This document shows positions 45,173-49,700 of a DNA stretch of 51,441 bases, in pieces. Position 1 is the stretch's first letter; every line of letters begins with the position of its first letter. Position numbers and translations under genes: made by a program. The DNA is from an uncultured Lachnospiraceae bacterium (GTDB taxonomy: Bacteria; Bacillota; Clostridia; Lachnospirales; Lachnospiraceae): NCBI GenBank assembly GCA_900317555.1, contig ONHF01000018.1:1-51441 (forward strand), written 5' to 3'. The notes beneath the pieces are model-generated. The model did no database searches. It was not told the DNA's origin and saw only the letters and a list, made by a program, of their open reading frames with translations.

Positions 45173-45535
45173 TCAGAAAAACAACTTTCCCGCCTTTCTG
45201 ACGCTTCGCAGATAATAGATAAAGGTACTGAAAAACAAAATCAATACCGCCAGCTCCGAAAACAACGCAAAATCAGAAACAATCTCAAACAGGCCGGTAT
45301 ACTTTCCGGCCAGTTCCCAGATTCCCAGAAGAATTGTAACAAGCGACAGCGCGAGCGTTCTCGGGAACATAAACTTCTGAAATCCTTGTATATTTTTGCA
45401 GTTTGTTCTGTCTGCCGGCTGCGAAGGAGAGATCATGAGACTTTTATTAATCTGTCCGTCATTTTTCAGCCGGATTGCCGCGTACAGGACATAGATTCCG
45501 GAGACGATAATCAGTATGCTGATAACTTCATCCAT
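45173..45535 (-). CDS. Small three-span membrane protein, unknown function
   Basis: The protein has 120 residues with predicted spans near 4-22, 64-82 and 92-112, and a short basic C-terminus. I recognise no family. ATG 45535 has AGGGAG 6 bases before it; a GTG at 45550 would instead overlap the thrC stop as GTGA. The gene lies tight behind thrC, so it is likely cotranscribed with the rnf/thrC genes. Confidence 0.7.
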   Translation of the reverse strand: MDEVISILIIVSGIYVLYAAIRLKNDGQINKSLMISPSQPADRTNCKNIQGFQKFMFPRTLALSLVTILLGIWELAGKYTGLFEIVSDFALFSELAVLILFFSTFIYYLRSVRKAGKLFF

Positions 45536-45546
45536 TTGCCGCTCCC

Positions 45547-47037
45547 TCACAGACCGAGAAACTTTTCAACCATGGACTGCATGGATGCCTTGTCTTTGCC
45601 GCAGACACCTTTATGCAGAATCTTTGCGCCGCGAAGAGAAGCGACAGCCTGCGGAACCGGGACGCCTGCTGTTCTGGCAAGTTCATCCGCAAGATCCAGA
45701 TCATCCATGTCTGTCTCTTTGCCAAGAGCCCGCATGACGCTCGTCTCGAACTTAAACGGACTTGCCGTGGAAACAATCACCGTCGGCGTCTCATCCGCGG
45801 TTTCCGTCTGGTACTGCGCGTATACGCTCGCCGCGACGGCTGTATGCGGGTCGATCACATATCGGTGGTTTTCATACATCAGACGGATTGCGTCGGCTGT
45901 CTGGTCCTCATCCGCGTATCCGCCGTAAAAACAATCCAGTTTTGAGCGCATCTCATCCGAAATGCGGTATACGCCCTTCTCCGACAGATCCTTCATCAGC
46001 TGCGCGTTGACCGCCGCGTTGTCGCCGGCGATATGATAAATCAGGCGTTCCAGATTGCTCGAAATCAGGATATCCATCGACGGTGAACTTGTCAGAATGA
46101 ATTCCCGGTTTCTGTCATAGGTTCCTGTTCGGAAGAAATCGAACAGAACTTTATTGGAATTAGAGGCGCAGATCAGTCTGTGCACGGGAATTCCCATGGC
46201 TTTCGCGTAGTACGCCGCGAGAATATCACCGAAATTGCCGGTCGGAACAACGAAGTTGACCTCATCGCCGGAACTGATTCTGCGGTTTCGAAGAAGCCTT
46301 GTATAAGCCCAGACATAATAAACAATCTGCGGCACGAGACGGCCGATATTGATCGAGTTTGCGGAGGAGAACTGATATCCCGCGGCTTCCATTTTTTCGC
46401 GGAGAGCCTCGTCCGTAAAGATCTGCTTCACGCCGCTCTGGCAGTTGTCGAAATTACCTTCCGCGGCAATCACGCAGGTATTGTCTCCCTGCTGCGTGAC
46501 CATCTGGCGCTTTTGGATTGCGGAAACACCATCTTTCGGATAAAAGACAACAATCTTTGTGTCCGGAACGCCCGCAAAGCCGGCGAGAGCGGCTTTTCCT
46601 GTATCTCCGCTGGTCGCGGTCAGGATCACGATTTTCCTGTCCAGATGGTTCTTCTTCGCGGCAGTTGTCATAAGGTGCGGCAGAATCTGGAGCGCCATGT
46701 CCTTGAACGCAATCGTCGGGCCATGGAACAGTTCCATGAAATAGGTTCCGCTCTCATCTTTGATCGGCGCGATTTTGGCGGTATCAAAGTTCTCTCCATA
46801 TGCCTTGTCGATGCACCCGCGCAGCTCCTCCTGCGTGAAATCGGTAAGGACAAGCTTCATGACTTCATAGGCGACTTCTTTATAATTCATTCCGGCCAGC
46901 TCTTCAAAGCTTCTGTCCAGCGCGGGAACGACTGTGGGAACGAAAAGTCCTCCGTCATCCGCAAGACCCTTCAGGATAGCTGCGGAAGCCGTGATCGGTG
47001 CCGCGTCAGATCTGGTGCTCTTATACATAACTTCCAT
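45547..47037 (-). CDS. thrC: Threonine synthase from an internal start within the fusion frame
   Basis: From ATG 47037 the frame gives a 496-residue protein, the usual length for this ThrC type. YKSTRSDA at the N-terminus is the standard family start. The PLP lysine is Lys112 in GPTIAFKDMALQ, followed by TATSGDTGKAAL. It converts O-phosphohomoserine to threonine. GAGGAGG lies 10 bases before ATG 47037, well placed for independent initiation. Whether the cell makes free ThrC, the fusion, or both needs protein evidence; the gene itself looks intact. Confidence 0.88.
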   Translation of the reverse strand: MEVMYKSTRSDAAPITASAAILKGLADDGGLFVPTVVPALDRSFEELAGMNYKEVAYEVMKLVLTDFTQEELRGCIDKAYGENFDTAKIAPIKDESGTYFMELFHGPTIAFKDMALQILPHLMTTAAKKNHLDRKIVILTATSGDTGKAALAGFAGVPDTKIVVFYPKDGVSAIQKRQMVTQQGDNTCVIAAEGNFDNCQSGVKQIFTDEALREKMEAAGYQFSSANSINIGRLVPQIVYYVWAYTRLLRNRRISSGDEVNFVVPTGNFGDILAAYYAKAMGIPVHRLICASNSNKVLFDFFRTGTYDRNREFILTSSPSMDILISSNLERLIYHIAGDNAAVNAQLMKDLSEKGVYRISDEMRSKLDCFYGGYADEDQTADAIRLMYENHRYVIDPHTAVAASVYAQYQTETADETPTVIVSTASPFKFETSVMRALGKETDMDDLDLADELARTAGVPVPQAVASLRGAKILHKGVCGKDKASMQSMVEKFLGL

Positions 47038-48249
47038 TCTCGTCTGTCCTCCTCTTCTCTTCCTCGCGGCTTTGTTGCCGCGTCTTCTTTCCTTCGCAAC
47101 AATTTCCTGCAGCTCTGTCATATCGCTGTCCCGGATTTCCGGCTCTCTATGCTCGACGGGCCGGCGCTGTCTCTGCGCGTTCAGTGCCTCATCACTGATC
47201 GTACCGGCTGTCTCCGAACCCGTGACCTGCGCGGCAGGAATCCGCTCCGCTTCTTTCTCCGTCAAAACACTGCCCGCAGGCCGCTTCTTCGGCGTACCGA
47301 TCCGGATAATCTTTTTCGCCTGCACAACGCCGAAAGGCTTTGTCATGGAAGCCTTGTCAATCAGCCTGACAAGAGCGTTCGCGGCGAGCAGTCCGGCCAC
47401 CGCAGACTCTTCCTGAAAAGACGCCTTCCGGAGAATAAAGACAAAAGCTCCGAAAAGCATGGCAAAATACACCTTCCCCCTCTTCGACATCGGGGTGGTT
47501 GTATAATCGTTTGCCATAAAGAACGCCGTGAACAGGAAACCGCCGCCGATCAGCTGAACCAGAAGATAATACGGACTCAGTCCCTGCCCGCCAAACAACG
47601 AAAACAGGACCGCGAATGTCAGAATCGAAACAAGAGGAATCAGGATATCCGCGATCCCGGCCGCAAATAAAAAGGCAGCGCCAAGCAGGATCATAACCGC
47701 GCTTCCGGTGCCGATTCTACCGGGTGTATTGCCTGTGATCAGCGCCTTCAAATCAGGAAGCGTACCTGAAAGGAGTGACTGCAGCGGTTCTTCCCCGGCT
47801 GCAAATACGCCGCCGTGAAAATCACGCATCCTTGTGCGGAAAACAATCATCAGAAGCAGATTACCCGTCGCCGCCGGATTCAGAATGTTCTTTCCGATTC
47901 CGCCGAAAAGCATCTTCGCGCCGATGATCGCGGCAGCATTCGCAACGACAGGATAATACAACGGGACGGAAGGCGGAAGCAGCAGCGCTCCGACAAGTCC
48001 TGTCACTATGCAGGAATAATCGGGAATCGTAACGCCCTTCCGCAGAACCGCGTCGGCAGACAGTTCACACAACACCGCGGAAGCAATGCTGATGAAGATC
48101 AGCAGCGCTGCATGCATCCCGTAATTGTAGATTCCGTGACCGGCTGCCGGAAGGAGCGAAAGGATCACGCAGAACATGCACTCGGAGGTTGTAAGTCGCG
48201 ATCTGGAGAACGGCGCATGCCGGTAAACATTGTACACACGTCTTTTCAT
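45547..48249 (-). CDS. In-frame fusion: RnfD-like membrane subunit joined to threonine synthase
   Basis: One open frame of 900 residues. Residues 1-300 match RnfD, with about eight to ten spans, GGIGKNILNPAATGN (116-130) and the FMANDYTTTPMSKRGK block (244-259). Residues about 301-404 are a charged, Arg/Lys-rich cytoplasmic linker. Residues 405-900 are a complete threonine synthase. Where RnfD normally has S-G-A-T-P-L with FMN on the Thr, this protein has A-G-E-E-P-L, so the acceptor is Glu154. ATG 48249 overlaps the rnfC stop (ATGA) and has GAGGAGG upstream. A second ribosome site inside the frame may also yield free ThrC. Confidence 0.88.
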   Translation of the reverse strand: MKRRVYNVYRHAPFSRSRLTTSECMFCVILSLLPAAGHGIYNYGMHAALLIFISIASAVLCELSADAVLRKGVTIPDYSCIVTGLVGALLLPPSVPLYYPVVANAAAIIGAKMLFGGIGKNILNPAATGNLLLMIVFRTRMRDFHGGVFAAGEEPLQSLLSGTLPDLKALITGNTPGRIGTGSAVMILLGAAFLFAAGIADILIPLVSILTFAVLFSLFGGQGLSPYYLLVQLIGGGFLFTAFFMANDYTTTPMSKRGKVYFAMLFGAFVFILRKASFQEESAVAGLLAANALVRLIDKASMTKPFGVVQAKKIIRIGTPKKRPAGSVLTEKEAERIPAAQVTGSETAGTISDEALNAQRQRRPVEHREPEIRDSDMTELQEIVAKERRRGNKAARKRRGGQTRMEVMYKSTRSDAAPITASAAILKGLADDGGLFVPTVVPALDRSFEELAGMNYKEVAYEVMKLVLTDFTQEELRGCIDKAYGENFDTAKIAPIKDESGTYFMELFHGPTIAFKDMALQILPHLMTTAAKKNHLDRKIVILTATSGDTGKAALAGFAGVPDTKIVVFYPKDGVSAIQKRQMVTQQGDNTCVIAAEGNFDNCQSGVKQIFTDEALREKMEAAGYQFSSANSINIGRLVPQIVYYVWAYTRLLRNRRISSGDEVNFVVPTGNFGDILAAYYAKAMGIPVHRLICASNSNKVLFDFFRTGTYDRNREFILTSSPSMDILISSNLERLIYHIAGDNAAVNAQLMKDLSEKGVYRISDEMRSKLDCFYGGYADEDQTADAIRLMYENHRYVIDPHTAVAASVYAQYQTETADETPTVIVSTASPFKFETSVMRALGKETDMDDLDLADELARTAGVPVPQAVASLRGAKILHKGVCGKDKASMQSMVEKFLGL

Positions 48250-49610
48250 TCCCTCTGAAACCTCCTCGCATAATCTCCTGCCAGCTCCGGCTTTTTGAGG
48301 AGTGCGTGCCGCATGGCAATGATCGGTGCCGCCAGAGAAATCTTGGACGGGCAAATGTAACTGCAGCAGCCGCAGTCGCAGCACTCAAGGCCGTTATGGT
48401 CGATAAAAGAACGCGCGCTGCTCCTTCTCGCGTCCTGATAGAGCACAACAGGCATCAGGCGGTTCGGACATACGTCCAGGCATCTGGAGCATCTCGTGCA
48501 GGCAGTTTCTTTCTGGCGCTGCATCTCTTCCTTTCGAAGACACACGATTGCGGAACTGAGCTTTGTAATCGGTACATCCAGATCCCTGATCGGAACGCCT
48601 GTCATCGGGCCGCCGTCGAGAATCAGGGCATCCTCTTGCTTTAACCCGTCCGCAAGTCCGCCTGCCTGTTCCAGTACCTGCCGGTAGCTCATTCCGATTC
48701 TGACGCGGAAATTTCCCGGCTGCGCGGCGGCGTCTCCTGTGACCGTCACAATCCTCGTAATCAAAGGCTCATGCATAATAACAGCCTGATTCACGGCAAC
48801 CAGCGTGTCCGTATTGCAGACCAGGCAGCCAATGTCCCGGGGCAGCATTTTCGCGTTCAATGTTCTTCCCGTCAGTGCATAAATCAGCTGGCGTTCGGCG
48901 CCCTGCGGATACTTGGTCCGCAGACGCTTCACATAAATCCGTGGATCGTCCCGCAGCAGTTCCCGCAGCAGCCGGTAACCCTCCGCGTTGTCTTCGCTGA
49001 CAGCAATATAACCGCGCGCACCCGGGTAAATCTGCAGAAGCACCGCGAGGCCGCTGATCACCTTCCAGGGGTTCTCAAGGAGTCTTCTGTAATCACTCGT
49101 AAGATAAGGCTCACATTCCACGCAGTTGGCGATGATGGTATCGATATCTTCCTCCCCTGCGCTCCGGAGCTTGATGTGCGTCGGAAGCCCGGCGCCGCCC
49201 ATACCTACAATACCAGCGTTTTTAACTACAGTTAAAACAGTTTCTCTCGTTAAAAGCGACAGTTCCCTGTTCTGCGGATAGCCGATTTCCAGAAAGATTC
49301 CGTCATTTGCGATAATAATACAGGGCTGCAGTGAGCCGTCAGCCGTTCTCCTTTTGTCTATGCCAAGTACCTGCCCGGAAACGGAAGCATGCAGATTTGC
49401 GCTCGGGTCCCTGTCAGCCCTTGCAATCAGCTGACCGGTGCGCACGTAATCGCCGCGCCGCACGACCGGAACCGACGGGTTCCCAATATGCTGAAGAAGC
49501 GGATAAACCATCTCCCCTGTGTCGGGGAGGAGCGTCTTGATCGGCACGTCTCTCGACATGTCTTTCCCCTCGAAGGGATGAACTCCGCCTGTAAAAGTAT
49601 GTTTTGCCAT
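48246..49610 (-). CDS. rnfC: Rnf-type electron transport complex subunit C
   Basis: The protein has 454 residues. RnfC is the NADH-facing subunit of the ion-pumping ferredoxin:NAD complex. The GMGGAGLPTHIKL loop (136-148) and ECEPYLTSD (165-173) match the FMN/NADH domain. Two 4Fe-4S sites are intact: Cys371/374/377/381 and Cys410/413/416/420. I chose ATG 49610 with AAAGGTG 8 bases upstream because MAKHTFTGGVHP is the family start; the frame to 49679 would cross the promoter. The gene overlaps the rnfD-thrC frame by 4 bases. Confidence 0.93.
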   Translation of the reverse strand: MAKHTFTGGVHPFEGKDMSRDVPIKTLLPDTGEMVYPLLQHIGNPSVPVVRRGDYVRTGQLIARADRDPSANLHASVSGQVLGIDKRRTADGSLQPCIIIANDGIFLEIGYPQNRELSLLTRETVLTVVKNAGIVGMGGAGLPTHIKLRSAGEEDIDTIIANCVECEPYLTSDYRRLLENPWKVISGLAVLLQIYPGARGYIAVSEDNAEGYRLLRELLRDDPRIYVKRLRTKYPQGAERQLIYALTGRTLNAKMLPRDIGCLVCNTDTLVAVNQAVIMHEPLITRIVTVTGDAAAQPGNFRVRIGMSYRQVLEQAGGLADGLKQEDALILDGGPMTGVPIRDLDVPITKLSSAIVCLRKEEMQRQKETACTRCSRCLDVCPNRLMPVVLYQDARRSSARSFIDHNGLECCDCGCCSYICPSKISLAAPIIAMRHALLKKPELAGDYARRFQRE

Positions 49611-49670: not shown

Positions 49671-49700
49671 ATTATACAAAACGCAGTACTTTTATGCTAG
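49671..49700 (-). promoter_or_regulatory. Candidate promoter for rnfC
   Basis: A perfect TATAAT (49676-49671) lies on the minus strand with a weak CTAGCA -35 at 18-base spacing. The leader to ATG 49610 would be about 55 bases. Confidence 0.55.

Follow-up and report, generated by a model that had tools for sequence, protein, structure and literature searches.

An RnfD paralogue joined in frame to threonine synthase: an apparently real and fairly recent fusion in two genomes of a Lachnospiraceae genus

Organization of the rnfC2-rnfD2-thrC locus

The window is a 51,441-nucleotide stretch of contig ONHF01000018.1 from an uncultured Lachnospiraceae bacterium (assembly GCA_900317555.1), designated G000 in our set of 62 genomes of the genus. 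All features of the window described here are on the minus strand. Reading of its ORFs gave a single frame of 900 codons plus stop with no internal stop codon (45547..48249), which has a matching frame in a second, sister gut-bacterial genome, G004. The ORF and the family matches bear out the original prediction of a continuous path from an RnfD-like domain through a linker into a full-length threonine synthase. The fused gene is referred to as rnfD2-thrC, RnfD2 being our own label. The first gene of the operon is a paralogue of rnfC, rnfC2 (48246..49610), with 431.8 bits against TIGR01945 (cut-off 245.95) and a possible alternative in-frame TTG start at 49679. The ATG of rnfD2 (48249) overlaps the rnfC2 stop by 4 nt, as ATGA, and is preceded at a distance of 11 nt by GAGGAGG (48261..48267). 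The RnfC2 of the window contains two CxxCxxCxxxCP motifs, the Gly loop and ECEP. Both [4Fe-4S] motifs were present in all 20 RnfC2 proteins examined, while the Gly-loop pattern missed two of the 20 and the ECEP pattern also missed two.

The RnfD-family membrane domain occupies residues 1-308 (47326..48249), as delimited by alignments, by structural similarity and by the Pfam family PF03116 at residues 10-307 (239.2 bits, cut-off 27.7). This part scored 157.3 bits against TIGR01946 (rnfD), under the cut-off of 207.05, in a search that did not include the other RnfD of G000. Since an alignment of the whole fusion placed RnfD2 rows on ThrC columns, AlphaFold2 folding was restricted to residues 1-404 (28 rows, mean pLDDT 77.6). 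The core of the model was mostly confident, and the top two Foldseek matches were the RnfD chains 9eri_D and 7zc6_D, with TM-scores of 0.84 and 0.88 by target length. The linker comprises residues 309-404 (47038..47325) and was delimited by the pLDDT profile together with codon-periodic substitutions; its length of about 96 residues agrees with the charged linker of about 100 residues proposed from the sequence. Residues 309-345 mostly had pLDDT values below 50, and a helix was modeled at 375-399 with block means of 58-80, so that the linker is predicted to be largely disordered. It carries a SETAGTI motif (47197..47217), which is common to ten RnfD2 tails.

The threonine synthase part spans residues 405-900 and the stop codon (45547..47037). 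In the fused protein, Pfam placed Thr_synth_N at 409-484 and the PLP-enzyme domain PALP at 503-828, and the NCBIfam model TIGR00260 (thrC) was matched above its cut-off (239.4 bits versus 167.1). Residues 404-900 align over the full length with the threonine synthase 8g1y_A (573.3 bits), from which the window enzyme differs in being the in-frame continuation of a membrane domain and a linker. An internal GAGGAGG (47048..47054), identical in G004, lies 10 nt ahead of an ATG at 47037-47035, which by start alignment is likely the own start of the thrC part; the ribosome site and ATG noted earlier at the junction are thus present in the sequence. Directly after thrC there is a small hydrophobic ORF (45173-45550) that had no matches in Pfam or NCBIfam and that occurs in G004 as well, as judged by alignment of the spacer.

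RnfD2 and the Rnf complex

The fused protein had been taken for the RnfD subunit of a redox complex, and, as far as tested, this part of the original prediction did not hold. A complete rnfCDGEAB operon of G000 was found on another contig (C29), and its RnfD carries the sequence DGVTGATPL. In contrast, only rnfC adjoins rnfD2 in the window, with rnfG, rnfE, rnfA and rnfB absent beside it. The covalent-FMN motif [ST][GS]A[ST] was found in none of the 22 aligned RnfD2 proteins at the corresponding site (21 by script and G066 from alignments), where G000 and G004 have Glu, G036 has YGAT and many others keep a nearby Thr or Ser. As a control, all 72 RnfD proteins from rnfG-bearing loci carry the motif, 42 in the form [ST][GS]A[ST] and 30 in the looser form [STA]xAT.

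The distribution of Rnf partners was scanned in 18 of the 23 genomes with RnfD2, namely the 12 with one RnfD-type match and six of the 11 with two (G023, G030, G061, G062 and G066 fall outside the scan, and weaker RnfD matches were read in part). An RnfA/E-type protein (PF02508) was absent in 12 of the 18, and in these 12 genomes RnfD2 is the sole PF03116 protein, present in two pieces in G064. Nine of the 12 have no ApbE and nine no FMN_bind domain; ApbE is present in G026, G070 and G074. Both RnfA/E and ApbE are absent from G006, G016, G028, G034, G075 and G078, each at least 93% complete. As far as tested, the window protein is therefore not the RnfD of the Rnf complex. It is a member of a paralogous clade whose sole Rnf-type partner gene is a paralogue of rnfC, since the full operon lies elsewhere, the FMN motif is missing from all 22 aligned members and RnfD2 occurs in genomes devoid of RnfA/E.

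RnfD2 resembles the RnfD of Rnf complexes (7zc6_D from C. tetanomorphum, 9eri_D from A. woodii) in its PF03116 domain, fold and preceding rnfC. It differs from them in that its clade has neither the covalent-FMN motif (22 of 22) nor adjoining rnfGEAB, and the window protein has in addition a tail and ThrC. Because the genomes that have no RnfA/E keep the pair, and because both [4Fe-4S] motifs persist in 20 of 20 RnfC2, the pair can probably persist in genomes where no Rnf complex is recognizable, RnfB having been outside the search; the ApbE of G026, G070 and G074 speaks against this. A further-reaching reading, doubtful enough to be put forward only tentatively, is that RnfC2-RnfD2 would be a membrane module of two subunits that stands on its own instead of being an Rnf pump. 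RnfC2 with its Fe-S motifs would sit on an RnfD2 devoid of covalent FMN, the module would work in some genomes that have neither RnfA/E nor ApbE, and the disordered, cytosolic tail would serve as an attachment arm for soluble enzymes; the signs for such an arm are the region of the SETAGT(I/V) motif, a GNAT fusion and the ThrC fusion.

Other RnfD and FMN_bind proteins were seen in the same genus. Four RnfD proteins of about 525 residues have an RnfG-like C-terminal half (L043:1200-2768, L044:5970-7592, L045:5975-7552 and L046:2879-4480), of which L043 is the one where a family search confirmed FMN_bind. In G000 itself, FMN_bind was matched three times in the region C20:55303-58038, within a single long open frame (given as 1509 codons) that possibly encodes a multi-flavin protein.

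Origin of the fused frame

A search of the 62 genomes with the RnfD part yielded RnfD2 in 23 of them, 22 of which were aligned; in the remaining one, G064, the contig contains Ns. Immediately downstream of rnfD2, thrC is visible in 20 of these 23 genomes: G000 and G004 have it fused, and 18 have it as a neighboring separate ORF. Contig ends account for two of the other three (G066 and G070), and G030 has thrC on another contig. G028 was considered as a third, diverged fusion, its frame being given as 906 codons, and was rejected because three stops separate RnfD2 from ThrC and the frame has 358 codons. In G074 (L049:2024-3534) thrC is split into two ORFs in the assembly, which may reflect either a sequencing error or a genuine interruption of the gene.

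In the phylogenetic tree, RnfD2 separates as a single clade (support 100/100) from 20 other RnfD rows. The fused pair falls within a sub-clade of 11 members (99/96) that includes unfused ones. Given this nested position, the fusion is derived and, judging from the sequences, apparently real and fairly recent. It appears to be one step beyond ordinary coupling, because rnfD2 and thrC are tightly spaced in some unfused relatives: the rnfD2 stop ends 1 nt before the thrC start in G036, and the two genes overlap as ATGA in G069. Of 20 genomes of the genus aligned at this point, 12 have an ATG at the corresponding thrC codon, G000 and G004 among them. The linker consists of the C-terminal tail of RnfD2 and the former leader of thrC.

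The sister of the RnfD2 clade is an rnfC-rnfD pair of Lachnoclostridium sp. An131 (locus L072; support 100/98), which likewise has no rnfG in its locus and no FMN motif. Unlike RnfD2 of the window, it has no long tail and is not followed by thrC; the genes after the pair are ones that we take, by our own reading, to be ruvAB. Since this pair lacks a thrC neighbor, the rnfD2-thrC neighborhood may be particular to the genus, and it may be due to chance.

RnfD2 tails vary widely, and in unfused relatives the frame continues for 7 to 464 codons beyond the RnfD core. Tails are near-absent (G073, G028), long and PQ-rich, GNAT-fused or ThrC-fused. Stretches rich in P and Q or in G occur in the tails of G069 and G072. 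Very long low-complexity tails were seen at L047:4722-7049, L053:6351-8531 and L034:8705-10690, with repeats such as YLDPNMGTGPMP in G069. The GNAT acetyltransferase-like domain is found on RnfD2 of G012 and G016 (48.7 and 46.0 bits, cut-off 25.4; L041:4139-5656 and L042:6753-8267), and a separate thrC follows in both. The SETAGT(I/V) motif occurs in ten RnfD2 tails, all from the sub-clade of 11, in which G061 is the member devoid of it. The search pattern had 24 matches in the 62 genomes compared with 16 for a reversed control pattern; besides the ten tails, the 24 comprise five further SETAGT sequences in unrelated or very short frames and nine that are not SETAGT.

The search of relatives for the same missing stop found it in G004, a member of the same genus with a frame of identical length (900 codons) that is 96% identical overall, 91% over residues 1-330 and 98.6% in the ThrC part. 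Between codons 316 and 402 there are 26 nucleotide differences, distributed as 4, 3 and 19 over codon positions 1, 2 and 3 (one-sided binomial p = 4e-5), and between codons 381 and 404 there are ten, distributed as 1, 1 and 8 (p = 0.003), in tests on a single pair of related genomes where the thrC-gltA spacer, carrying a small ORF, offers no clean non-coding control. The linkers of the two genomes have no indels; 24 codons are changed in the range 316-410, 19 of them synonymously, and the last change is at codon 396. Between G000 and G004, dN/dS in the linker is about 0.08, which lies between the values for ThrC (0.02) and the RnfD core (0.13). With no indels and 19 of 24 changes synonymous up to codon 396, the linker frame looks translated almost to the thrC start, and a substitution pattern of this kind would be unexpected in a free gene's leader. 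Special conservation of the internal ribosome-binding site was considered and is not taken as evidence: a 59-nt identical run covers the internal start and is just the fourth longest in 4064 nt of the operon.

These comparisons bear on the possibility that two genes were joined through an error of sequencing or assembly that deleted the stop between them. The draft, multi-contig state of both genomes is in favor of such an error; however, the two differ at 325 of 4064 sites across the operon and nevertheless have in common an indel-free frame with codon-periodic changes, so an artefact is highly improbable. Separate genes in relatives had been named in advance as a point against the fusion, and 18 of 20 genomes do have them, but the frame is fused in G004 and its linker is constrained as protein.

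Proposed products and significance

One above-cut-off ThrC was found per genome in eight genomes scanned, including G000, where at 87% completeness a second could be missed, and G004, which is 95% complete and has no second one. Our preferred interpretation, to which we assign a probability of about 0.65, is that the fusion is real and derived, and that a single ThrC is probably made both tethered and free as an outgrowth of stop-start coupling. It concerns one genome pair and one evolutionary event, with the products deduced from sequence. In the ancestor of G000 and G004, the tail frame of RnfD2 in an rnfC2-rnfD2-thrC operon would have run through the thrC leader into thrC. Ribosomes starting at 48249 would then produce a 900-residue protein composed of the membrane domain, a flexible linker of about 96 residues and a cytosolic ThrC, whereas those starting from the retained GAGGAGG and ATG at 47037 would produce free ThrC. 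The tethered product is supported by the protein-like evolution of the linker, and the free one by the retention of the ribosome site and start codon, the latter having a matching position in 12 of the 20 aligned genomes. Fusion, free ThrC or both was therefore the right set of options, with the internal ribosome site being the ordinary start of thrC. We infer a fusion protein that is both synthesized and stable, initiation at the internal start, the ratio of the two products and a cytosolic location of ThrC. The substrate of ThrC is located in the cytosol. ThrC is a PLP enzyme that has no redox chemistry, and for this reason electron transfer to it is not proposed.

Two main rival explanations compete with this reading, one in which the run-on is nearly neutral and one in which the tail docks enzymes. 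The fusion could be nominal, its product being rare or cleaved in the disordered linker, with internal initiation at 47037 supplying almost all functional ThrC, so that the lost stop would have little consequence. The strong internal GAGGAGG and the retained ordinary thrC start fit such a run-on, as do the largely disordered linker in the model and the 18 of 20 relatives devoid of the fusion; yet eight of the ten differences in the last 24 codons ahead of the thrC start are at third positions, which suggests in-frame read-through to the junction, and we regard a nominal fusion as somewhat unlikely. It is also conceivable, though improbable in our judgment, that RnfD2 tails bind soluble enzymes including ThrC via the region of SETAGT(I/V) and that the fusion fixed an existing contact. 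The juxtaposition of rnfD2 and thrC in all 20 genomes where both are visible together (G030 being the exception), the motif in ten tails and the second enzyme-like domain fused to RnfD2, GNAT in G012 and G016, all point toward docking. However, 12 of 22 aligned RnfD2 have no such motif although most still precede thrC, G073 and G028 are nearly tail-less, and the related L072 pair does not adjoin thrC.

Proteins that carry a soluble domain at the C-terminus of an RnfD-family membrane domain are known. NQR/RNF-like proteins in which an NqrB/RnfD membrane domain is followed by a C-terminal NqrF domain are described in PMC8238504, where these C-terminal domains are given as cytosolic; the cytosolic C-terminus predicted for RnfD2 fits this description. 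The window protein shares with them a soluble domain on the C-terminus of an RnfD-family membrane domain, but the partner here is a PLP enzyme of amino-acid synthesis instead of an NAD(P)H oxidoreductase domain, and the flavinylation motif is absent. In the window protein, Pfam found PF03116 and the threonine-synthase domains only, with no C-terminal NAD-binding PF00175. Neither an RnfD-threonine synthase fusion nor an account of RnfCD alongside Rnf was found in the literature searched, a scope outside which most subscription journals fall.

Should the cell in fact make the fusion protein, two species would have an enzyme of amino-acid biosynthesis anchored to a membrane protein of a redox family. 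The effect of tethering could then be tested directly, since close relatives retain the ancestral, unfused form. The orphan RnfC2-RnfD2 pair may outrank the fusion in interest, as an rnfC-rnfD pair in genomes that have no RnfA/E bears on the roles of RnfD-type proteins outside the Rnf complex.
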